Assembly (NCBI GenBank): GCA_025056175.1
Contig: JANWWK010000051.1
Location: 1 to 57,654, forward strand
Length of the DNA: 57,654 bases
Source: Anaerolineales bacterium
GTDB taxonomy: Bacteria > Chloroflexota > Anaerolineae > Anaerolineales > Villigracilaceae
Direction: 5' to 3'
The notes under the pieces were generated by a model. The model was not told where the DNA came from, did no database searches, and was given only the letters and a program-made list of their open reading frames with translations. Both the position numbers and the translations under genes were made by a program. Shown in pieces: positions 42,911-53,797 of this stretch (within the stretch, counting starts at the first letter, position 1; every line of letters begins with the position of its first letter).

Positions 42911-42912
42911 AC

Positions 42913-42933
42913 AGGGGCGCTCATGGCGCCCCT
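42913..42933 (-). terminator. Terminator at the end of the hydrogenase operon
   Basis: AGGGGCGC (42913-42920) and its complement (42926-42933) form an 8-bp stem whose loop contains the stop codon of the hydrogenase protease gene. On the minus strand it is followed by TGTTTATTTTTT. It sits between convergent genes. Confidence 0.75.
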
Positions 42934-43412
42934 AACGCTTCAAAAACGGCTGCTACCGCTCTTGGCACGGCAGCGGCCACCGGAGGGGTCAGTTCCTCCG
43001 TAAAATCATACACGTGCGCGGCCTCAATGGCGACGACTTGAATCTCCTCGTCCTGTGGCAGGGAGGCGCCCATGCGCCGACCGAGTTCCAGCGCACGCTT
43101 CAGCGAAAGGTCGTGCGCTGAAGCGCTGTGTCCATAGGTCAGGTCTTCCAGCGCATCCAGCCGAAAGGTGACAACTTCGCCCTGGGGGTATCTGCCAGTG
43201 TTGAGCGAATCAATCAGAATGACACGCTCATAGCCAATCATGTGCTCCATCAGTGAGATGCCGGCCAGGGAGAGACATTCGACGGTTATCTCTCCCTGCG
43301 GGAGAGGGGTTGGGGGCGAAGGGAGCTGCCGCTCGACCTGTTGCGCCACCTTCCAGCCAACACCGTCATCACCCAGAATGGGGTTGCCGAGTCCGATGAT
43401 GAGTGTTTTCAT
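42921..43412 (-). CDS. [NiFe] hydrogenase maturation endopeptidase (HyaD/HycI family)
   Basis: A 163-residue protease that trims the C-terminus of the hydrogenase large subunit after nickel insertion. Motifs are IIGLGNPILGDDGVGWKVAQQVE (the nickel-sensing acidic residue lies in GDDG), VILIDSLNTG and SAHDLSLKRALELG. It is the last gene of the hydrogenase operon, 60 bases after mvhA, and that gap contains a large hairpin. Residues 31-41 (PSPPTPLPQGE) look like an in-frame insertion from a dispersed palindromic repeat. No Shine-Dalgarno is obvious. Confidence 0.92.
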   Translation of the reverse strand: MKTLIIGLGNPILGDDGVGWKVAQQVERQLPSPPTPLPQGEITVECLSLAGISLMEHMIGYERVILIDSLNTGRYPQGEVVTFRLDALEDLTYGHSASAHDLSLKRALELGRRMGASLPQDEEIQVVAIEAAHVYDFTEELTPPVAAAVPRAVAAVFEALGAP

Positions 43413-43422
43413 GGTCAAAGAG

Positions 43423-43466
43423 GACGGTGAACGATAGACCGCGTCACAGGCCTATCATTCACCGTC
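43423..43466 (-). promoter_or_regulatory. Large intercistronic hairpin between mvhA and the maturation protease gene
   Basis: GACGGTGAACGATAG (43423-43437) pairs with CTATCATTCACCGTC (43452-43466), 14 of 15 positions. It begins 6 bases after the mvhA stop and ends 10 bases before the protease ATG on the minus strand. It could lower read-through or translation of the protease relative to structural subunits. Confidence 0.6.
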
Positions 43467-43472
43467 TATGCT

Positions 43473-44945
43473 CTAATCTACGAACTGCTTCAACACGTCC
43501 ACCACTTCACCATCGGGCGCGCGGACGGTGACTTCCAGCGGCATTTGACCGGGCAGCGAGTGGGTGGCACAGCCGAAGCAGGGGTCGTAGGCGCGGAAGG
43601 CCATTTCGACCATGTTGAGCAGTCCTTCGGTCACCTTGCCGCCCTTAATCAGGTTGCGCGCCGCCTTGTTGGTGGACATCTGAATAGGCGCGTAGTTGTT
43701 GGTGGTGCCGACAATCAGGTTGGCTTTGGTGACGATGCCGCGTTCGTCCGTCCAGTAGTGATGGGTGAGTGTGCCGCGTGGAGCTTCCACAATCCCCACG
43801 CCTTCGGTGGGCGTTTCCGTGGGAACCTTGTGGACGTTTGGAGAGGTGATTTCCGGGTCGGTTGCCAGTTCGACCCAATGCTCGGCGGCGTAGAGCAGCT
43901 CGATGAGCCGCGCCCAGTGGATGGCAAGCCGTTGATGCACGGGTTTGCCGCCCAACGTGGCATACATCTCCTCGTAGGCTTCCTGCGCGCGGGGGGTTGC
44001 CATGCCGTCGCTGGCGTTCAGGCGCGAGAGCGGGGTTGCCATATAGACACCGGATTCTTTGCCATCCACGAACCCTTTCCAGCCCACCTGTTTGAGATAC
44101 GGGAATTTCAGATACGTCCAGGGTTCGACATGTTCGGCAATGTGGTGCATGTAGTCCTTGGGTTCGTATTTGCAGAATTCTTTGCCTTCCGGGTCCACCA
44201 CGCGCACTTTGCCATCGTAGAAATTCACCTTGTTGTTCTCATCCACCAGACCCATGTAGTACGTTCGGTGGGTGTACACGTCACCGACAATCAGGTCGAG
44301 ATAGGTTGGGTTTGCCAGCACAATGTCTTTGAAGGCTTTCAGGCTGAACAGGGCGAACTCGACCGCCCAGCGTCCCATTTCCTCGATGTGTTTGCGCTCT
44401 TCCTCCGAGAGAATTTTGGTGATTCCGCCGGGGATGGCCGAAGCGGGATGGACTTTGCGTCCACCGATGATTTCGACCGTTTCGTGGCCGTATTTGCGCA
44501 TCTGAATCACTTTACTGCCGATTTCCAACCCTACCTTGCGAATGACACCCAGTATGTTACGCTCACCGACGGGGGCATCTGGCCCGACGATGAAATCGGG
44601 ACCGCCGAGGGCGTAGAAATGGGTGGTGTGGTCGGTGGCGTAAAATGCCATGTAGAGCAGTTCGCGCAGTTTTTTGGCGGTGGGCGGCGGGTCCACGTGA
44701 TAAACGGCATCGGCAGCCTTGACGGCGGCCATGTGGTGGGCTTCGGGGCAAACGCCGCAAATGCGGTTGGTCAGCAGCGGCATTTCTTCGATGGGGCGTC
44801 CTACACAAAAGCGCTCGAAGCCGCGCAGTTCGGGAATCTGGAAGTACGAGTTGGCGACGTTGCCGTTTTCGTCCAGGAAAATATCAATTTTGCCGTGACC
44901 TTCCAGGCGGGTGATGGGGTCAATCGAAATGCGTTGCATGCTCAT
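43473..44945 (-). CDS. mvhA: [NiFe] hydrogenase large subunit, Mvh type (group 3c)
   Basis: A 490-residue catalytic subunit holding the NiFe site. The proximal motif is RICGVCP (C63, C66) and the distal motif DPCFGCATH (C456, C459, His462). A 28-residue tail (463-490) follows His462 and should be removed by the maturation protease encoded next. MQRISIDPITRLEGHGKIDIFLDENGNV is the standard N-terminal motif, and AGGAGG precedes the ATG at 5 bases. Neighbouring mvhG, mvhD and hdrABC assign it to the group 3c methyl-viologen-reducing/bifurcating class rather than F420 or NAD hydrogenases. Confidence 0.94.
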   Translation of the reverse strand: MSMQRISIDPITRLEGHGKIDIFLDENGNVANSYFQIPELRGFERFCVGRPIEEMPLLTNRICGVCPEAHHMAAVKAADAVYHVDPPPTAKKLRELLYMAFYATDHTTHFYALGGPDFIVGPDAPVGERNILGVIRKVGLEIGSKVIQMRKYGHETVEIIGGRKVHPASAIPGGITKILSEEERKHIEEMGRWAVEFALFSLKAFKDIVLANPTYLDLIVGDVYTHRTYYMGLVDENNKVNFYDGKVRVVDPEGKEFCKYEPKDYMHHIAEHVEPWTYLKFPYLKQVGWKGFVDGKESGVYMATPLSRLNASDGMATPRAQEAYEEMYATLGGKPVHQRLAIHWARLIELLYAAEHWVELATDPEITSPNVHKVPTETPTEGVGIVEAPRGTLTHHYWTDERGIVTKANLIVGTTNNYAPIQMSTNKAARNLIKGGKVTEGLLNMVEMAFRAYDPCFGCATHSLPGQMPLEVTVRAPDGEVVDVLKQFVD

Positions 44946-44954
44946 GGCTGCCTC

Positions 44955-45950
44955 CTAGTGACCGTTCTTTTTCCACGCCGGAACGCCTGCCCGTAAGAGC
45001 GAATCGGCCAGATTGAAGCGGTAGAACTGACCGACCGGGTCGGGAATGCCGTCCAGAATCGCTTCGATTTCTTCCGGCTCTTTGGCATCTACCACCGAAG
45101 CAAAGGCCGTAATCAACCGTGCGCCATAATCCAGCACGCCTTCGGCTGGCCCATAACAGCCGATACACTGCGCCCCTACGCGCGGGCAACGGGCATTGCA
45201 GCCGGAGCGCGTGGCCGGGCCGTTGCACGGCACACCCTGCTCCAGAATGCACAGAGTGGGGTCGAGTGGCGCTACGTCTTGAATACGTTTGAAGGCGGTG
45301 ATGTGTTTGACGTTGCGCGCGCGCGGACATTCATCGCATACCGTAGAGTTGCCGGCTCCAATCACTGCGCCTTTGGGTGGCAGTTGCGCTTTGCCCTCCA
45401 GCACCGCAATCACCAGGTCAATCACTGCCGCAATCTGGTGCGGCTCCGGCGGACAGCCCGGCATGAAGTAGTCCACATCCACCACTTGCGCCAGCGTTTT
45501 CAGCACGGGGTTCATGGCAGGAATGGTGAGCGTGCCTTCGGGCACCTGGACGACGGGTTGCGGGTGAATGCCTTGTGGGTTGTCAGTGGAAACGGTGTGA
45601 TAAGCCGTTGAGAAAATTTCTTCCACCGGGTAGAGATTTGCCAGTCCTGGCACGCACCCCTCGGTGGCGCATGAGCCAAAGGCCACGAGAATTTTGGATT
45701 TTCGGCGCAACAGGTGGGCGATATGTTCGTTTTCCTGGTTGCGAATGCCGCCGTTCCACAGGGTCAACAGGATAGACCCGTCTTCCATCGCTTCCACATC
45801 TTTGTATTTCGAGTCCACTGCCACCGGCCAGAAGACCGGCTCGAAATGGGCGTCCACATCGAGAATTTTTTCGCCGATGTTCAGGACGGAGATTTCACAC
45901 CCTCCGCAGGAAGCGGCCCAATACATGGCAAATTTCGGTTTTTCGCTCAT
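44955..45950 (-). CDS. mvhG: [NiFe] hydrogenase small subunit, Mvh type
   Basis: A 331-residue iron-sulfur subunit that carries electrons from the NiFe site. Cluster ligands are visible in AASCGGCEISVL, FGSCATEGCVPGL, FMPGCPPEPHQI, VCDECPRARNV and GCNARCPRVGAQCIGCYGP, enough for three clusters. No twin-arginine signal is present, so the enzyme is cytosolic. The ATG at 45950 has GGAGGTG upstream and overlaps the mvhD stop as ATGA; the longer frame to 46004 reads into mvhD. Confidence 0.94.
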   Translation of the reverse strand: MSEKPKFAMYWAASCGGCEISVLNIGEKILDVDAHFEPVFWPVAVDSKYKDVEAMEDGSILLTLWNGGIRNQENEHIAHLLRRKSKILVAFGSCATEGCVPGLANLYPVEEIFSTAYHTVSTDNPQGIHPQPVVQVPEGTLTIPAMNPVLKTLAQVVDVDYFMPGCPPEPHQIAAVIDLVIAVLEGKAQLPPKGAVIGAGNSTVCDECPRARNVKHITAFKRIQDVAPLDPTLCILEQGVPCNGPATRSGCNARCPRVGAQCIGCYGPAEGVLDYGARLITAFASVVDAKEPEEIEAILDGIPDPVGQFYRFNLADSLLRAGVPAWKKNGH

Positions 45951-46414
45951 GCCGTCACCTCCAGGATGGGTTGTTTTTCCGCGGTGTGTCCATTCGAGTC
46001 CCATTTCGGCCAGTGCAATGGTCCCAGCGCGCGGATTTCTTCGACAAATGCGTTGATTTCATTGGTCAGTTTCAGACCCTCAGCAGCGCTCGCCCATACC
46101 AGTTTGATGCGTTCTGGCTCCACGCCCAGGCCTTTGAGTGTGCGGCGCAGCAGCAGGAAACGGCGCAAGGCTTTGTAGTTCTGGTCAATGTAGTGACAAT
46201 CGCCCGGGTGACAGCCGGTAATCAGGACGCCATCGGCCCCGCTGGCCAGGGCTTTCATCACAAACGTCGGGTCGAGACGCCCGGAACACATCAGCCGAAT
46301 CAGCCGCACGTTGGGGGCGTATTTCATGCGGGCGGTGCCAGCGGCGTCGGCGGCGCGGTAACTGCACCAGTTGCAGGTAAAACCCACGATGACGGGTTCA
46401 AAAGAGTCTGTCAT
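45947..46414 (-). CDS. mvhD: MvhD-type [2Fe-2S] electron transfer subunit
   Basis: A 155-residue protein linking the hydrogenase to HdrA. The family's cysteine pattern is intact: FTCNWCSYRAAD, LMCSGRLDP, and GCHPGDCHYIDQNYKA, giving five cysteines for a [2Fe-2S] cluster. IRLMCSGRLDPTFVMKALASGADGVLITGCHPGDCHY is a typical MvhD segment. It has a good GGAG site, lies 55 bases after hdrA and overlaps mvhG by 4 bases, which supports a physical Mvh-Hdr link. Confidence 0.94.
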   Translation of the reverse strand: MTDSFEPVIVGFTCNWCSYRAADAAGTARMKYAPNVRLIRLMCSGRLDPTFVMKALASGADGVLITGCHPGDCHYIDQNYKALRRFLLLRRTLKGLGVEPERIKLVWASAAEGLKLTNEINAFVEEIRALGPLHWPKWDSNGHTAEKQPILEVTA

Positions 46415-46469
46415 AATCTTCTCCTCTGGGGGTTCTCAGGAAGTTCGTCAGGTCGCCGAAACGCCAGAC

Positions 46470-48458
46470 TCATACTCCCATCAGCAATCCCTCAATCTGC
46501 GCGAAAATCTGCTCGTTTGAGAAACCTGTGCCGCTGATAGCGCCTGCCGGGCAGGCCGCCACGCACGTGCCGCATCCCTGGCACAGCGCCGGGTTGATGC
46601 GAGTGACGCCCACGTCGTCCAGGAACGAGATAGCATTGAACGGACACAGGTTGTTGCAGATTCGGCAACCGGAGCATTTGCTTTCGTCCACGGTCGCGCG
46701 GATGGGTTCGAGTTCTACTTCTTTTTGGAGAATCTTATCCAGCACGCGGGCAGCGGCAGCGGCGCCTTGCGCCACTGAAGCGGGGATGTCTTTCGGCCCC
46801 GAAGCACAGCCTGCTATCAGAATGCCTTCTGTCATCGTGGTCACAGGGTCAAGTTTGGGGTGGCGCTCGATGTACCAGCCATCGGATGAGCAGGAGATAC
46901 CGAACATCTGCCCGACTTGTTTGGCGTCGTGGCGCGGCTCCATGCCAACCGAGAGGATGACCATATCTACCGGAATACGTCGTTGTTTGCCGACCAGGGT
47001 ATCTTCGACCTGGATGATGAGTTTGCCTTTTTCGTGGGGGCCGTGTGTCGCATTGGTGACTTCGGCCACTTTGCCGCGCACAAAGAGCGTGCCTTCTTCC
47101 AGCACGCGCTGATAGAACTCATCGTAGGCTTTCATCGGTGTCCGCATGTCAATGTAAAATTCATAGACGGTTGCGCCGGTGCGCTCTTTGACCAGATGCG
47201 CGAACTTCAGGCTCTGCATACAGCAAATGCTGGAGCAGTAGTTGTTGAAGTTCTTATCGCGCGAACCCACGCAGTGAATAATCCCGACGGTTTCTGGTTT
47301 GGTCTTGCCATCCCGCAGGGTGATTTCTCCTCCGGTGGGGCCGGCGGCATTGCTCATACGCTCGAATTCCAGACTGGTGAAGACGTTGGGCAGGCGCCCG
47401 TAGCCGTAGTTGGTCACCCGACGCGCATCGAACAGGTCGTAGCCGGTAGCGAGGATGATGTTGCCGACCTCCACGTTCAGGTACTGGTCTTCCTGGGTAA
47501 AGTCAATCGCGTTGGTGGGGCAGAACTTTTCGCACGCTTTGCACTTGCCGTTCTTGAAGAAAGTGCAATTCGGGCGGTCGAGAACCGGGTATTTTGGCAC
47601 AGCCTGGGCAAACGGGGTGTAAATCACTTTGCGATAGCCCAGCCCGGCTTCGTACACGTCGTCAATCACTTTTTGCGGGCATTTTTCAACGCAAATGCCG
47701 CATCCGGTGCAGAGTTCTTCGTTGACATAGCGGGCTTTTTTCTTGATGGTGACGTTGAAGTTGCCCACGTAGCCGCTTACGCTTATCACTTCGCTCCAGG
47801 TGAGCAGGGTGATGTTGGGGTGTGTACCGGCTTCCACCATGCGTGGGGTCAGGATGCAGGCCGAGCAATCCAGGGTCGGGAAAGTCTTGTCGAACTGTGC
47901 CATGTGTCCGCCGATGGAGGGTTCACGTTCGACCAGGTACACATGAAAGCCAGCGTTGGCAATTTCCAATGCGGCCTGAATACCGGCGATGCCGCCGCCT
48001 ACCACGAGCGTGTTGGGGTTGATGGGAACTTTGAGTGGTTGGAGTTCCGTGTTATAGGCCACACGGTGAACTGCCCCGGAGACCAGGGCTTTTGATTTTT
48101 CGGTAGCCACCTGTTTGTCGGTATGCACCCATGAAACCTGCTCGCGGATAGAGACCAGTTCGGTGAGATACGGGTTCAGCCCGGCGCGCTCGCTGGCAGT
48201 GCGGAAGGTTTTTTCGTGTAGATGGGGAGAACAGGCGGCCACCACCACCCGCTCCAGGCCGAGTTCCTGGATGTCTTTCTCGATGAGTTCCTGTCCCAGG
48301 CTGGAGCACATGAACTTGTAGTCGCGCGAGACGACGACCCCATCCTGGCCGAGCGCCGCTTGCGCCCAATCACGTACGGCCTCCACATCTACCATGCCGG
48401 CGATGTTAGAGCCGCAGTGACAGACATACACGCCGATTTTGGGTTTCTTTTCGCTCAT
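46470..48458 (-). CDS. hdrA: Heterodisulfide reductase-like subunit A (FAD, flavin-based bifurcation)
   Basis: A 662-residue flavoprotein, normal HdrA size. Features are VCHCGSNIAGMVDVEAV and CSPHLHEKTF in the N-terminal domain, the FAD dinucleotide fold TLVVGGGIAGIQAALEIANAGFHVYLVEREPSIGGHMAQ, and TLDCSACILTPRMVEAGTHPNI. Ferredoxin-type clusters are CTGCGICVEKCP, CKACEKFCP, CSGCRICNNLCP and CQGCGTCVAACP. In methanogens the FAD splits electrons between ferredoxin and the heterodisulfide (known). AGGAGGCC precedes the ATG. It sits between hdrB and mvhD. Confidence 0.95.
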   Translation of the reverse strand: MSEKKPKIGVYVCHCGSNIAGMVDVEAVRDWAQAALGQDGVVVSRDYKFMCSSLGQELIEKDIQELGLERVVVAACSPHLHEKTFRTASERAGLNPYLTELVSIREQVSWVHTDKQVATEKSKALVSGAVHRVAYNTELQPLKVPINPNTLVVGGGIAGIQAALEIANAGFHVYLVEREPSIGGHMAQFDKTFPTLDCSACILTPRMVEAGTHPNITLLTWSEVISVSGYVGNFNVTIKKKARYVNEELCTGCGICVEKCPQKVIDDVYEAGLGYRKVIYTPFAQAVPKYPVLDRPNCTFFKNGKCKACEKFCPTNAIDFTQEDQYLNVEVGNIILATGYDLFDARRVTNYGYGRLPNVFTSLEFERMSNAAGPTGGEITLRDGKTKPETVGIIHCVGSRDKNFNNYCSSICCMQSLKFAHLVKERTGATVYEFYIDMRTPMKAYDEFYQRVLEEGTLFVRGKVAEVTNATHGPHEKGKLIIQVEDTLVGKQRRIPVDMVILSVGMEPRHDAKQVGQMFGISCSSDGWYIERHPKLDPVTTMTEGILIAGCASGPKDIPASVAQGAAAAARVLDKILQKEVELEPIRATVDESKCSGCRICNNLCPFNAISFLDDVGVTRINPALCQGCGTCVAACPAGAISGTGFSNEQIFAQIEGLLMGV

Positions 48459-48467
48459 GATGGCCTC

Positions 48468-49469
48468 CTACTCTTCCGCGACGGCCTGTCCACTGGCATA
48501 TTTCTTGGGCAGAGGTTTGGGCATGGGCAAGCCTTCTGGCTTCCTGCGCGGCGCGGCGGGTTTGGCTTCTTCTGGCACGTTCAGCCCAATGCGCGCCAGG
48601 GCTTCTTTGGCGCTGACCAGTTCCAGGCCGAAGCCGGCCTGTTTGGGGTCTATGCCGAAAGCAACCGCCATTAACTGCGTGAAGAAGACAATCGGCATGT
48701 GGTAGTTCGTGCCGAAATGACGGTTCGTTTCGCCCTGGTACGCATCCAGGTTCATCTGGCACATCGGACACATGGTGACCATAATATCGGCCTGGTGTTC
48801 TTCGGCAGCGGCCACCAGACGGCGGATGAGTTCATATGCTGTTTCCGGCCCAATTTGGGTCATATGTCCGCCGCAACAGGAAGTTTTCATCGGGAAGTCA
48901 ATCACCTCTGCGCCGAGCGCCTTCATCAAGTCGTCGAGTTCGGAGGGATGCTCATGGTCTGACCAGCGTTTGGCGAAATCGGGACGCGGCACCATGCACC
49001 CCAAATACGGGGCAACCCGCAGTCCGGTGAGCGGGCGCACCACCTTCGATTTGACCGTCTCCAACCCAATGTCGTTGATGATGACATCTACGAGATGCCG
49101 AATTTGAAGCGTGCCGGGGTCGTAGTGCAGGCCGCCGGCGGCCAGCGCTTCGTTCACTTTTTCCCCCAGCGCAGGGCGTTCGGCCATGTAATAATCGGCC
49201 TTTTCCAGGTTCAGGTAGCAGGCCGAGCAGGGCGCCATGACGGTATCGGTGCCGTTTTTTTGTTGGGCGGCCAGTGCCAGGTTACGAGCAATCAGCGAAT
49301 AGGCCGGAATCAGGTTAATGCTCAGGTATTCGGTTGCGCCGCAACAGTTCCAGTCCTCAATTTCTTCCAGTTCCAGCGCCAGCGGGGGCTGAATGGCTTT
49401 CAGCGATTCGTAGTACGCCCTGGCGCTGCCTTCCATAGAACAACCGGGGTAAAAGAGATACTTGTTCAT
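48468..49469 (-). CDS. hdrB: Heterodisulfide reductase-like subunit B (CCG domains)
   Basis: A 333-residue protein with two cysteine-rich CCG domains that hold non-cubane iron-sulfur clusters at the disulfide-reducing site. The first set is LFYPGCSMEGSARAYYES, WNCCGATEYLS and APCSACYLNLEKAD; the second is PYLGCMVPRPD, SCCGGHMTQIG and MCPMCQMNLDAYQG. All cluster cysteines are present. About 40 residues beyond the usual end form a Pro/Lys-rich tail (KPAAPRRKPEGLPMPKPLPKKY), uncommon in the methanogen protein. Its ATG overlaps the hdrC stop. The natural disulfide or other acceptor is unknown here. Confidence 0.94.
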   Translation of the reverse strand: MNKYLFYPGCSMEGSARAYYESLKAIQPPLALELEEIEDWNCCGATEYLSINLIPAYSLIARNLALAAQQKNGTDTVMAPCSACYLNLEKADYYMAERPALGEKVNEALAAGGLHYDPGTLQIRHLVDVIINDIGLETVKSKVVRPLTGLRVAPYLGCMVPRPDFAKRWSDHEHPSELDDLMKALGAEVIDFPMKTSCCGGHMTQIGPETAYELIRRLVAAAEEHQADIMVTMCPMCQMNLDAYQGETNRHFGTNYHMPIVFFTQLMAVAFGIDPKQAGFGLELVSAKEALARIGLNVPEEAKPAAPRRKPEGLPMPKPLPKKYASGQAVAEE

Positions 49470-50065
49470 GCGGTCAACTCCAGGGTTTTGGCTTTCTCAA
49501 GAATGGCCTTGAGTTGTTCGATGTTCTTAATACGCGTTGGGGCCAGGTTCATGCGCTTTTTGGTGAGCATCCCCAGTCCCATGCCGGCCATGCCAGGCAG
49601 GCGCAGAGGTTGATGGGTCAGGTAAAAGCGGGTTGCCAGCCCCAATTCAAAACTCCGCCCGAATGTCTCCACCATTCCTACGAAGGTTTGGGAGAAATCG
49701 GGCGGTTTTGAGTCGGTATATTTTTTGGCTTTGATGGCCATGCTTTTGAGGGTGTACATCACATCAGCAATATGCACCTCTTGTGGACAGCGCACCACGC
49801 AGTGATAACAGGAGACGCAAATCCACGGGGTGTTGCTACGCAGCACTTCTTCCCGCATTCCGGCGCGCAGCATTGCAAACAAAGCGCGCGGCGTGTGGTC
49901 CATATCCGCCGCAGATGGACAGGAGCCTCCGCACGTGCCGCACTGGATGCACATCTCCAGGTGCGACACGCCCGCTGTGGCCTCTGCCACCTCGCGCAGG
50001 AGCGTCAAGTCTTCTGGTTTCTTGAGTCCTGCGCCCTGGGTGAGAACGGTTTCGGCAGCCGCCAT
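49466..50065 (-). CDS. hdrC: Heterodisulfide reductase-like subunit C (two [4Fe-4S] clusters)
   Basis: A 199-residue ferredoxin-like subunit that passes electrons from HdrA to HdrB. It has two CxxCxxCxxxCP motifs, CIQCGTCGGSCP and CVSCYHCVVRCP. The remainder is helical (DSKPPDFSQTFVGMVETFGRSFELGLATRFYLTHQPLRLP). It starts the operon; AAGGAGG lies before the ATG. Gene order hdrC-hdrB-hdrA-mvhD-mvhG-mvhA-protease on one strand indicates a single polycistronic unit. Confidence 0.93.
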   Translation of the reverse strand: MAAAETVLTQGAGLKKPEDLTLLREVAEATAGVSHLEMCIQCGTCGGSCPSAADMDHTPRALFAMLRAGMREEVLRSNTPWICVSCYHCVVRCPQEVHIADVMYTLKSMAIKAKKYTDSKPPDFSQTFVGMVETFGRSFELGLATRFYLTHQPLRLPGMAGMGLGMLTKKRMNLAPTRIKNIEQLKAILEKAKTLELTA

Positions 50066-50318: not shown

Positions 50319-52064
50319 ATGTTTTCCCGTCGTCTTCTTGCTCTGGCACGTTCTTCCAATGTGGCGCTTGCGCTCACCATCGTCTTGGGGTTTGTTGGTG
50401 GCTTGCTGACCATCTTGCAGGCCTGGATTCTTGCGCTCATCATCAACGATGTCTTCTTCAACGGTCTGACGCGCGAAGCCGTCCTGGGTCGTTTGGCCGC
50501 GTTGTTGGGCGTGGTCATTGTCAAAGCAGCTGTGGTGTGGGGGTCTGAAGTGGCTGCGAATGCCGTTGCCCAGCGCGTCAAAGCCGACCTGCGCGAACGG
50601 CTGGTGAAGCATCTGACGGCGCTCGGCCCGGCTTATACCCAGTCGGAACGCACCGGCGAGTTGTCACTTTCGGCTATCGAGGGTGTTGAAAGCCTGGAAG
50701 CCTATTTCAGTCAATATCTGCCGCAGCTGGTGCTGGCTGCTTCCATTCCGCTCTCGGTGCTTTTGCTGGTCTTTCCGCTCGACCCGCTCTCTGGCGTGGT
50801 CTTTCTCTTGACGGCCCCGCTGGTGCCATTCTTTATGATTCTGATTGGACGCTCTGGCGAAGCTCTGACCAGCCGTCAATTTGAGACCCTGCGCCATCTT
50901 TCTGCCCATTTTTACGATGTGTTGCAGGGACTCACCACGCTCAAAGCCCTCAATCAATCTCGTAGTCAGGCCGGGGTGATTGGCGAAGTGGCCGAGCGTT
51001 ACCGCGATGTGACCATGCAGGTTTTGCGCGTCACGTTTCTTTCTGCGCTGGCGCTGGAGTTTCTCACCACGCTTTCCACCGCTATCATTGCCGTTGAAAT
51101 CGGTTTCCGCCTGCTTTACCGGAACATGGAATTTTTGCCGGCTTTTTTCATCCTCGTCCTTGCGCCGGATTTCTACCTGCCCCTGCGTTTATTGGGCTTA
51201 CGTTTCCATGCCGGCATGAGCGGCGTGAGCGCCGCCAAACGCATTTTCGAGATTCTGGATACCCCTGTGCAAACCGTCTCTGGTGTTGCCTCGAACCGCG
51301 TTGTGCAACCAGAGAACTTTTCTGCCGTCCAACATGCAACCATTCTCTTTGACGCCGTCTCTTATACGTACCCCGACCGCACTGCGCCAGCCCTTCATCA
51401 AGTGACATTCTCCATTCCAGCCGGTCAGACCACAGCGCTGGTGGGTGCTTCGGGCGCGGGGAAAACGACCGTTGCCAACCTGCTCATGCGCTTTATCGAA
51501 CCCCAGAGTGGAACGATTCGCGTGGGTGATACGCCACTGGCGCAGATTCCAGCGGACGCATGGCGCAAGACGATTGGGTGGGTGCCGCAAACTCCCTATC
51601 TCTTCTCAGATACCATTGCTGCCAATTTGCGCCTGGCGCGTCCCGAGGCCAACGAAGGTGACCTGTTGCGTGCCTGTGAACGCGCCGGTTTGCTCGATTT
51701 TATCCGCGCTCTGCCCGAAGGCCTGGAAACCCGCATTGGTGAACGCGGCGCGCGTTTGAGCGGCGGGCAGGCGCAGCGGCTGGCGTTAGCGCGCGCTTTT
51801 CTAAAGGATGCGCCGTTTTTGCTGCTGGATGAACCCACCTCCAGCCTTGACCCGGCGCTGGAAGCCGAGCTTCAGGCTTCGGTGCATGAACTCATGCGCG
51901 GACGCACCGTTCTGGTCATTGCTCACCGCCTGGCTACCATCTATCAGGCCGACCAGATTGTGGTGTTAGATGGCGGCAAGGTGGCCGAAGCAGGCCGGCA
52001 CGAGGAGTTGCTTGCCCGTCATGGCGCGTATGCTCGACTGGTTACCGGACAAACCACCCCATGA
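50319..52064 (+). CDS. cydD: Thiol reductant ABC exporter subunit CydD
   Basis: A 581-residue fused ABC transporter (membrane domain about 1-310, ATPase 330-581). The family hallmark APDFYLPLRLLGLRFHAGMSGVSAAKRIF sits at the membrane/ATPase junction. ATPase motifs are Walker A GASGAGKTTVANLLMR, signature LSGGQAQRLALARAFL and Walker B FLLLDEPTSSLD. CydDC exports cysteine and glutathione and is needed for cytochrome bd assembly (family knowledge). No cydAB genes are in the window. It overlaps cydC as ATGA and is divergent from the hdr/mvh operon. Confidence 0.92.
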   Translation: MFSRRLLALARSSNVALALTIVLGFVGGLLTILQAWILALIINDVFFNGLTREAVLGRLAALLGVVIVKAAVVWGSEVAANAVAQRVKADLRERLVKHLTALGPAYTQSERTGELSLSAIEGVESLEAYFSQYLPQLVLAASIPLSVLLLVFPLDPLSGVVFLLTAPLVPFFMILIGRSGEALTSRQFETLRHLSAHFYDVLQGLTTLKALNQSRSQAGVIGEVAERYRDVTMQVLRVTFLSALALEFLTTLSTAIIAVEIGFRLLYRNMEFLPAFFILVLAPDFYLPLRLLGLRFHAGMSGVSAAKRIFEILDTPVQTVSGVASNRVVQPENFSAVQHATILFDAVSYTYPDRTAPALHQVTFSIPAGQTTALVGASGAGKTTVANLLMRFIEPQSGTIRVGDTPLAQIPADAWRKTIGWVPQTPYLFSDTIAANLRLARPEANEGDLLRACERAGLLDFIRALPEGLETRIGERGARLSGGQAQRLALARAFLKDAPFLLLDEPTSSLDPALEAELQASVHELMRGRTVLVIAHRLATIYQADQIVVLDGGKVAEAGRHEELLARHGAYARLVTGQTTP

Positions 52065-53797
52065 AAACGCTTTCTCGTCTTTCCTCTTTCCTTCTTCCGT
52101 TTTGGCCTCAGGTGTTGCTGGCTGTCTTGCTGGGCGCGCTCACCATTGGTTCCAGCATTGCGCTCATGTCCACATCAGCCTGGCTGATTTCGACTGCTGC
52201 GATTGCGCGCTCGGTGGCCGATTTGGGCGTTTCGGTGGTCTCAACGCGGCTGTTTGGCGTCTCGCGTGCGGTGTTTCGGTATGTGGAACGCCTGGTTTCG
52301 CATTCTCTTACCTTTCGCATTCTTGCGCGCTTGCGGGTGTGGTTTTACCAGGCCATCGAACCGCTTGCGCCAGCCCGGCTGGTCTCGGCGCGCAGTGGTG
52401 ATTTGCTCTCGCGCGTTATTGCTGATGTCGAAACCCTGGATAATCTTTTCGTCCGCGTGTTGGCGCCGCCGATGGTCGCCGTTGTTATCGTTCTGGCGAT
52501 GGCGGTGTTTATGGGCAGTTTCGACCCTGTGCTGGGATTGGTCATCACGGCCTTTCTCCTGGCCGTGGGCGTTGGGCTGACGGCTTTTAGCCTGTTTCTG
52601 AATCGCACACTGGGCAGACAGCTGGTTGAGTCTCGTTCCATTCTGCGCGCCGATTTGGTAGATGCCGTGCAGGGTTTGCCCGACTTAATAGCCTTCGGTC
52701 AGGAATCGGCCTGGTTGGAACGAATCAACGCTTCGGGCCGGGAATTTTCTCGAACCCAAACCCGTATGGCGCAGCTGAATGGCCTGCAATCGGGGTTGAA
52801 CAGTCTGTTGACCGGTTTGGGCGCATGGTTGATGCTCTTTCTGGCGATACCGCTGGTTTCAAGTGGCAGAATCGAGGGCGTGTACCTGGCCGTGATTGTT
52901 CTGGCTTCGATGGCAAGCTTTGAGGCCGTTCAAAACCTGCCGCAAGCCGCCCAATTGCTGGAAGCCAATCTACAATCAGCACGACGGCTGTTCGAGATTG
53001 CTGACCAGTCCCCTGCAGTCACCGAGCCGACGGATCCGCTTCCCCAGCCGGCCTGTGCGGATTTGCATGTGCGCAATCTGTCTTTTTCCTATGAACCGGA
53101 AGCGGAACACGCCGCACCACTCGTGCTTTCCAATCTCTCGTTCGACCTGCCTGCCGGAAAGAAACTCGCCATCGTCGGCCCCAGCGGAGCGGGCAAATCT
53201 ACACTGGCGAACTTGCTGATGCGTTTTTGGGATGCCGAAGGCATTTTTCTGGATGGACGCGACATCCGTGCATACCGGCAGGTGGATGTGCGCCGCATGT
53301 TCAGCCTGGTCAGCCAGAACACCTACCTGTTCAACGCCACCCTGCGGGAAAATCTCCTGCTGGCGCGCCCCTGGGCTACCCAGCAAGACATCGAGGCCGC
53401 TTGCCGCGCTGCACAGTTGCATGACTTTATCGTTTCGCTCCCCAACGGCTACGAAACGATGGTCGGAGAGCGTGGCCTGCAATTGAGCGGCGGCGAACGC
53501 CAGCGCGTTGCCATTGCCCGCGCTTTGCTCAAAGATACCCCTATTTTTATCTTTGACGAACCGACCGCCAACCTGGATGCTGCCACCGAACGTAAACTGA
53601 TTGAAACGCTCCAGGCGGTGATGCAAAGCCGCTCAGTGTTGTGGATTACCCACCGACTTATCGGGTTGGAAGGGATGGACGAAATCCTCGTGCTGGAAGC
53701 AGGCCGTATCGTTCAACGCGGTACCCATGCCGAATTGCTGGCGCAACAGGGCTTATACCGCACCCTGTGGGATTTGCAAAACCGCGCTTTGCTGTGA
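52061..53797 (+). CDS. cydC: Thiol reductant ABC exporter subunit CydC
   Basis: A 578-residue partner of CydD. The CydC hallmark VVSTRLFGVSRAVFRYVERLVSHSLTFRILARLRVWFYQAI lies in the membrane domain. The ATPase domain has GPSGAGKSTLANLLMRFWD, LSGGERQRVAIARALL and IFIFDEPTANLD. It shares four bases with cydD, so stoichiometric synthesis is expected. A small gene of unknown role follows after 8 bases. Confidence 0.92.
   Translation: MKTLSRLSSFLLPFWPQVLLAVLLGALTIGSSIALMSTSAWLISTAAIARSVADLGVSVVSTRLFGVSRAVFRYVERLVSHSLTFRILARLRVWFYQAIEPLAPARLVSARSGDLLSRVIADVETLDNLFVRVLAPPMVAVVIVLAMAVFMGSFDPVLGLVITAFLLAVGVGLTAFSLFLNRTLGRQLVESRSILRADLVDAVQGLPDLIAFGQESAWLERINASGREFSRTQTRMAQLNGLQSGLNSLLTGLGAWLMLFLAIPLVSSGRIEGVYLAVIVLASMASFEAVQNLPQAAQLLEANLQSARRLFEIADQSPAVTEPTDPLPQPACADLHVRNLSFSYEPEAEHAAPLVLSNLSFDLPAGKKLAIVGPSGAGKSTLANLLMRFWDAEGIFLDGRDIRAYRQVDVRRMFSLVSQNTYLFNATLRENLLLARPWATQQDIEAACRAAQLHDFIVSLPNGYETMVGERGLQLSGGERQRVAIARALLKDTPIFIFDEPTANLDAATERKLIETLQAVMQSRSVLWITHRLIGLEGMDEILVLEAGRIVQRGTHAELLAQQGLYRTLWDLQNRALL

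Follow-up and report, generated by a model that had tools for sequence, protein, structure and literature searches.

The closest described relatives of the locus studied here are the MvhADG-HdrABC complex of methanogens (structures 5odc and 8rvu/9sw2), the MvhA clade of anaerobic Chloroflexi and Proteobacteria, for which transfer from a methanogen was proposed (Poudel et al. 2018, PMC6085437), and the HdrABC-MvhD-MetVF complex of acetogens (PMC9430772, PMC5736913). Other Hdr complexes in Chloroflexi were described in a 2017 single-cell study (PMC5736913). Our subject is an Mvh-Hdr operon on the minus strand at positions 42921-50065 of contig JANWWK010000051.1 from an Anaerolineales bacterium (57,654 nucleotides; this whole stretch is called the window). 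It forms contig 68 in an assembly of 95 contigs and 3.57 Mb (GCA_025056175.1), referred to below as the genome. Its HdrB carries a C-terminal tail with the motif LP[ML]P, a feature that goes together with an aromatic residue at position 275 of HdrA. Our overall reading, which we hold with a probability of roughly 0.7, is that of an Mvh-Hdr operon whose acceptor is a disulfide other than the heterodisulfide of coenzymes M and B (CoM-S-S-CoB), and in which an exchangeable, tailed HdrCB module would touch HdrA at Tyr275.

All six subunits of the methanogen complex are found in the window with their domains; the scores are 684 bits for HdrA against 5odc_A and 701 against 8rvu_a, 132.5 for HdrB against 5odc_B and 390.6 for MvhA against 5odc_F. 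The window differs from the methanogen complex in the LPMP tail of HdrB, in altered CCG motifs, in the aromatic residue at HdrA 275 and in that the genome has no match to ComA. For MvhA a Chloroflexi and bacterial clade is already published, and in the accessible text of that study (PMC6085437) no HdrB tail, HdrCB types or HdrA residue 275 are mentioned. The HdrCBA-MvhD core is shared with the acetogen complex (PMC9430772, PMC5736913); unlike in that complex, electrons would enter through a [NiFe] hydrogenase, and PF12225 has no match in the genome. The assignment of MvhA to group 3c, proposed in the initial annotation, fits by operon content (mvhA, mvhG and mvhD together with hdrABC) and by the best NCBIfam model (VhuA, 392.7 of 800 bits). 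The large subunit also has both NiFe motifs, RxCxxC and DPCxxC. In the MvhA tree a single clade (92/96) holds all 24 Mvh rows and is separate from the group 3d rows (94/97); the tree is unrooted, the 3b and 1c outgroup branches (8-10 changes) being too long to root it.

The HdrB tail of about 40 residues had been described earlier by its composition alone; it is indeed present, yet it carries the conserved LP[ML]P, which rules out a plain low-complexity run. The five matched HdrB sequences of solved structure (284-302 aa) align up to window residue 276-295, whereas the window HdrB has 333 aa. We compared it with relatives from the best 80 of at least 587 confirmed MvhA-encoding stretches (at least 593 matched). 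The complete HdrBs of these loci, that of the window included, fall into two types: T1, with 47 proteins that share 56-100% identity with the window HdrB, and T2, with 12 proteins at 41-46%. T1 proteins end in a basic linker and LPMP in 46 of 47 cases, L081 having LPLP; in other words LPxP occurs in 47/47 T1 proteins. In T2 proteins both the linker and LPMP are missing (0/12). L314, P315 and P317 are invariant in 39 aligned T1 HdrBs. When 20 further loci are added, LP[ML]P is found in 60 of 78 complete HdrBs (320-351 aa, 52-100% identity to the window), and the other 18 are untailed (288-306 aa, 35-46% identity). In these 60 proteins the net charge of the 14 residues ahead of LP[ML]P varies from 0 to +6, with +3 as the median. 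Duplicates are counted in this survey and in the first HdrA-HdrB pairing below (L134 = L014, L135 = L041, L156 = L137). In the AlphaFold model the HdrB body has a mean predicted local distance difference test (pLDDT) value of 89.6, and there is a local rise at the motif within a weak tail.

The two types are distributed differently on two trees. The tree of HdrA, MvhA and MvhG comprises 72 loci (59 T1, 13 T2), from which loci lacking any of hdrC, hdrB, hdrA, mvhG or mvhA, or having an incomplete HdrB, were excluded, as were L134, L135, L137 and L138. Of the 18 untailed HdrBs, L134, L135, L137, L139 and L140 are absent from this tree and the remaining 13 are its T2 members. The HdrCB type changes 7 times on it, at least 6 of the changes being forced by the starred branches. 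In the tree of HdrB and HdrC, calculated with the HdrB tail removed, T1 and T2 form one clade each (Shimodaira-Hasegawa-like approximate likelihood ratio 99), with a warning that L081 and the T2 side may be joined by long branches. Single clades on one tree and seven changes on the other mean that the HdrCB pair was exchanged repeatedly as one unit, or that two old copies were differentially lost. We infer that T1 and T2 HdrCB would be two interchangeable acceptor modules on a conserved HdrA-Mvh backbone.

The backbone proteins were scanned for columns in which at least 5 of the 6 T2 groups carry a residue that is rare in T1 (71 loci, L136 being further excluded). Out of 662 HdrA columns a single one passes, that of residue 275, and here the two types are fully distinct: T1 has Tyr in 58 cases and Phe in 1, and T2 rows are never aromatic. 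No column passes in MvhA (0/490) or MvhG (0/331). When each HdrA is paired with its neighbouring HdrB, residue 275 is Tyr or Phe in 60/60 tailed pairs and non-aromatic in 22/23 untailed pairs, the lone exception (L153) being a Phe in a gapped stretch. A further survey of 125 loci gave 112 pairs, of which 63 were complete and differed from each other and from the earlier ones, save that L155 had already been in the first pairing; here the residue is aromatic in 49/51 tailed and 0/12 untailed pairs. This survey used the looser LPxP, and L074, which has a chance LPTP and Lys275, was counted as tailed in its discovery line and as untailed elsewhere. Phylogenetically independent pairs agree in 6/6 cases (sign test p 0.031, the best attainable with six), and most other pairs share ancestry. 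Of the solved HdrAs, 5odc_A, 9sfi_A and 8rvu/8rvv have Met or Thr at this position.

Residue 275 is flanked by two cysteine motifs and belongs to the inserted ferredoxin domain of HdrA, the route to free ferredoxin (PMC9012536). This suggests that the tailed HdrCB module probably contacts the ferredoxin-output domain, with the LP[ML]P tail as the most likely contact with Tyr275, because the motif hardly varies although the rest of the tail changes freely. A flexible C-terminal arm of HdrB would reach this domain and LP[ML]P would pack on Tyr275, so that the arm would connect the low-potential exit with the end where the disulfide is reduced, and could act as a gate on ferredoxin reduction that is set by the state of HdrB. 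HdrCB modules, armed or armless, would swap between operons as entire units, residue 275 changing each time. We regard this picture, i.e. an arm that packs on Tyr275 and ties both exits, and modules exchanged together with a change at 275, as a tentative one with slightly less than an even chance. Assembly of the complex, its clusters, bifurcation and direction are presumed by analogy with the methanogen enzyme.

Several observations weigh against the overall reading. None of the six complex subunits (0/6) reaches the cut-off of an NCBIfam Hdr or Vhu/Mvh model (HdrA 612.8/1400 bits, or 825.7/1100 with the HdrA2 model; HdrB 166.9/345.15; HdrC 83.9/160). Phmmer scores MvhA higher against 7t2r_D (406.9 bits), from a bifurcating NiFe hydrogenase of group 3d, than against the methanogen MvhA 5odc_F (390.6 bits). 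The pLDDT of the tail is low (58 for residues 301-310, 69 for 311-320, 50 for 321-330), and two tailed pairs have no aromatic residue at 275 (L216 His, L217 Arg). In the column scan 5/155 MvhD columns (all at the variable residues 138-149) and 5/165 protease columns (variable positions) also pass, and the same scan flags 78/199 columns in HdrC and 116/333 in HdrB, the tail varying jointly with the HdrB body and with HdrC. As to the first ranking of 7t2r_D, the tree joins this protein not with the Mvh clade but with the second hydrogenase of the genome (99/95), a join flagged for long branches. This second [NiFe] large subunit lies on contig 10 (L147), the only place besides the window with a PF00374 match, and adjoins two Complex1_51K proteins and a Molybdopterin/Fer2 protein.

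Given this joint variation, it may be HdrC or the HdrB body that residue 275 is matched to, and the tail could dock on an outside partner such as an acceptor protein, ferredoxin or the membrane. The many other surfaces that changed with the tail speak for this explanation, and we consider it quite possible, somewhat short of even odds. Outside the seven genes, the commonest same-strand neighbour cluster is found on 21/101 sequences, at varying positions, so an outside partner would be encoded elsewhere; on the same grounds gene neighbours were discarded as a guide to the acceptor. Against this explanation, a single HdrA column stands out, and a hydrogenase partner is unlikely because the motif and Tyr275 are paired also in L130, L211 and L213-L215, tailed loci that lack an mvhA match. 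L130, L214 and L215 have less than 2 kb beyond the Hdr genes, and L217, also without an mvhA match, has the tail and Arg. The link between tail and residue 275 appears to be independent of the hydrogenase.

We now turn to the acceptor of HdrB. The ten CCG cysteines of the window HdrB are invariant in the 39 aligned T1 HdrBs, and its predicted model agrees with the methanogen HdrB 5odc_B (template modelling score 0.81/0.92). The surroundings of the cluster cysteines differ, CCGATEY and CCGGHMTQ in the window versus CCPAP and CCGAGGG in 5odc_B. At the catalytic irons of Hdr the bridging residues are Cys81 and Cys234, which the clusters of EtfD lack or replace by another construction (PMC13083937); the window residues aligning with these two are among the ten invariant cysteines. 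The invariant CCG and bridging cysteines favour disulfide chemistry with a substrate other than CoM-S-S-CoB, and such a disulfide is most likely the acceptor. In Asgard archaea the heterodisulfide for group 3c is likewise stated to be unidentified (PMC11291895). Transfer of electrons to a quinone in the manner of EtfD, without a disulfide, could be suspected, as HdrB scores highest among the NCBIfam models with SdhE of methylmenaquinol:fumarate reductase (184.8 bits, cut-off 500) and washed membranes of Sporomusa contain part of its Hdr subunits (PMC9430772). We think this highly improbable, given that the bridging cysteines defined for Hdr (PMC13083937) are invariant here. HdrB and HdrC are separate proteins with no Pfam membrane-domain match.

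The initial annotation had left the acceptor open and had not expected the host to make CoM-S-S-CoB. The first point stands, since ComA, DsrC and AcsB/CdhC have no match in the contigs of the genome; the second agrees with the missing ComA match, in a search that covered the ComA route to coenzyme M alone. PF12225 (DUF5981), which we take to be the MetV domain, has no match in the genome either, and all four were dropped as clues to the acceptor. Three proteins of the genome have CCG domains; besides the window HdrB these are a 664-aa protein that also has Fer4_8, and a contig 64 frame. A protein-bound lipoyl group, e.g. on GcvH, was suggested as disulfide carrier for HdrB by the authors on Culexarchaeia (PMC9723716). 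The genome does encode one GcvH, and locus L130 has a tailed HdrB together with MvhD and a GcvH-like protein whose ESGK stretch is read as a lipoylation site. We consider this carrier unlikely in the window: gcvH is absent from the recurrent genes beside the operon in the 101 sequences, the L130 GcvH has 0 matches among the loci searched from L211 to L250, and the host's own gcvH adjoins two open reading frames (ORFs), presumably gcvPA and gcvPB, which points to a standard role. L130 (1926-9676) itself contains a tailed hdrCB, hdrA, mvhD, the GcvH-like gene, an NAD-binding subunit and a glycyl-radical enzyme; its contig starts 1.9 kb beyond the Hdr genes, with no mvhA match.

The direction of the complex is not fixed by its sequence. 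Such complexes are in general reversible, and four POR-domain matches suggest ferredoxin-reducing enzymes, so the complex may run mainly in reverse, with reduced ferredoxin and a dithiol giving rise to H2 in fermentation; we hold this for possible, though less likely than not. Two cydA matches, on contig 37, speak against it, as they point to a capacity for oxygen respiration as well, and cydD and cydC (50319-53797) diverge from hdrC, which together indicate that the host probably has a bd oxidase.

That an Mvh-Hdr complex in a non-methanogen would be a surprise, as had been claimed, did not hold: 78/80 of the best relatives carry Chloroflexota names (MvhA identity 76-95%), and the clade is a published one (PMC6085437). 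The operon is ordinary and widespread in its group and of a kind already known. The two other records, L008 (Desulfobulbaceae, 86% MvhA identity) and L053 (Chthonomonadales, 80%), reflect either misbinning or transfer. All seven genes are present on 72/101 sequences examined, in the same order in 72/72. Many contigs end inside the operon, and the matches per gene among the 101 sequences are hdrC 80, hdrB 81, hdrA 87, mvhD 87, mvhG 94, mvhA 98 and protease 95. The protease is matched on 78/80 relative loci, the remaining two contigs stopping just past mvhA. An HdrB relative of some kind (E <= 0.001) was found in 110/400 Chloroflexota genomes and in 180/396 of the host's class, many of these being distant CCG proteins. 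ORF clusters beyond the seven genes comprise antisense ORFs on 44 of the 101 sequences, which may be an artefact of ORF calling, mixed signal-transduction-like proteins (21), phosphofructokinase-like proteins (10) and DUF2721 (4).

Some loci depart from the common arrangement. In L062 (4474-11461) no HdrB match adjoins HdrA-MvhDGA; hdrA is preceded by a 673-aa ORF, and its residue 275 is Lys. L010 and L079 are two mvhA loci in one metagenome-assembled genome (JABWAU010000069 and JABWAU010000151), the contig of L079 starting inside mvhA. An ORF of 84-117 aa between mvhG and mvhA is kept on 8 loci of both HdrCB types (L010, L014, L016, L019, L024, L052, L072 and L134, the last duplicating L014). 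In 12 HdrA stretches (L130, L211-L215, L235, two in L236, L244, L248 and L249) an in-frame TGA, the only stop in each, replaces the second Cys of the CxxC at HdrA 198-201. This codon, which aligns with Cys201 of the window HdrA, probably encodes selenocysteine; HdrA selenoproteins with CXXU/UXXC are described in Asgard archaea (PMC11291895).

The features of the operon, whose gene order is hdrC-hdrB-hdrA-mvhD-mvhG-mvhA-maturation protease, are listed in Table 1. The claim of a complete seven-gene operon on one strand was borne out by the ORFs and their Pfam domains, and the ATGA overlaps proved real (GCATGAAC at hdrC/hdrB, GGCATGAGC at mvhD/mvhG). Intact ligands, also claimed, were found in MvhA (RICGVC, DPCFGC and the C-terminal stretch after CATH), in the HdrB CCG motifs and in the cysteine sets of HdrC and HdrA (four sets of four in the HdrA ferredoxin regions); the MvhG and MvhD cysteines are listed without a structure alignment.

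Table 1. Features of the Mvh-Hdr operon in the window
Feature	Coordinates	Strand	Remarks
hdrC	49466..50065	-	199 aa; two [4Fe-4S] motifs; Fer4 domains; eight Cys in two CxxCxxCxxxC sets
hdrB	48468..49469	-	333 aa; two CCG domains; tailed type (T1)
HdrB C-terminal tail, residues 296-333	48471..48584	-	basic/Pro linker; beyond aligned end of solved HdrB; low pLDDT
LPMP motif, HdrB residues 314-317	48519..48530	-	conserved in T1 proteins
hdrA	46470..48458	-	662 aa; flavoprotein with Fe-S domains
HdrA inserted ferredoxin domain, residues ~243-320	47499..47732	-	Fer4 matches; alignment to solved HdrA
Codon of HdrA Tyr275	47634..47636	-	residue tracking HdrB type
mvhD	45947..46414	-	155 aa; FlpD E 4.9e-51
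mvhG, small subunit	44955..45950	-	331 aa; Oxidored_q6; best NCBIfam model VhuG, below cut-off
mvhA, [NiFe] large subunit	43473..44945	-	490 aa; NiFeSe_Hases
Stem-loop between mvhA and protease gene	43423..43466	-	18 pairs
Hydrogenase maturation protease	42921..43412	-	HycI; TIGR00072 above cut-off
Terminator-like hairpin at operon end	42912..42934	-	9 pairs, 7 of them G-C; T-rich tail

The start of mvhG was set by the ATGA overlap, the ORF list having 46004. The protease ORF (43418-42921) opens with TTG, and the ATG at 43412 is the likelier start. The sequence AAAGGAGGGG lies upstream of hdrC; the spacings hdrB-hdrA and mvhG-mvhA are each 9 bases with GGAGG, and the hdrA-mvhD and mvhA-protease gaps are longer. 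Terminator-like sites number 18 in the region, against 9.6 expected. The stretch between mvhA and the protease gene (43412-43480) folds at -34.2 kcal/mol (z -6.7 versus shuffles); in relatives the same intergene has a strong fold of other sequence in L005, L006, L007 and L009 and none in L014, L016 and L022. In comparison with the solved methanogen HdrA, the window HdrA has five extra residues between two cluster cysteines (residues 298-306).

We found no publication describing an HdrB with LPMP or with such a C-terminal tail in the searched literature, which consisted of open-licence papers; the tail with LP[ML]P appears to be new. The tail, the two HdrCB types and their covariation with HdrA 275 touch on two general questions, the coupling of the two exits in flavin-based bifurcation and the acceptor of bacterial Hdr complexes. 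Natural swaps of what may be acceptor modules on one backbone, with one matched residue, provide a ready-made comparison set, and the tail and Tyr275 can each be altered singly in a defined enzyme. An Mvh-Hdr complex in a non-methanogen is ordinary; the pairing of the HdrB tail with HdrA 275 would be a new and testable structural detail of this family.

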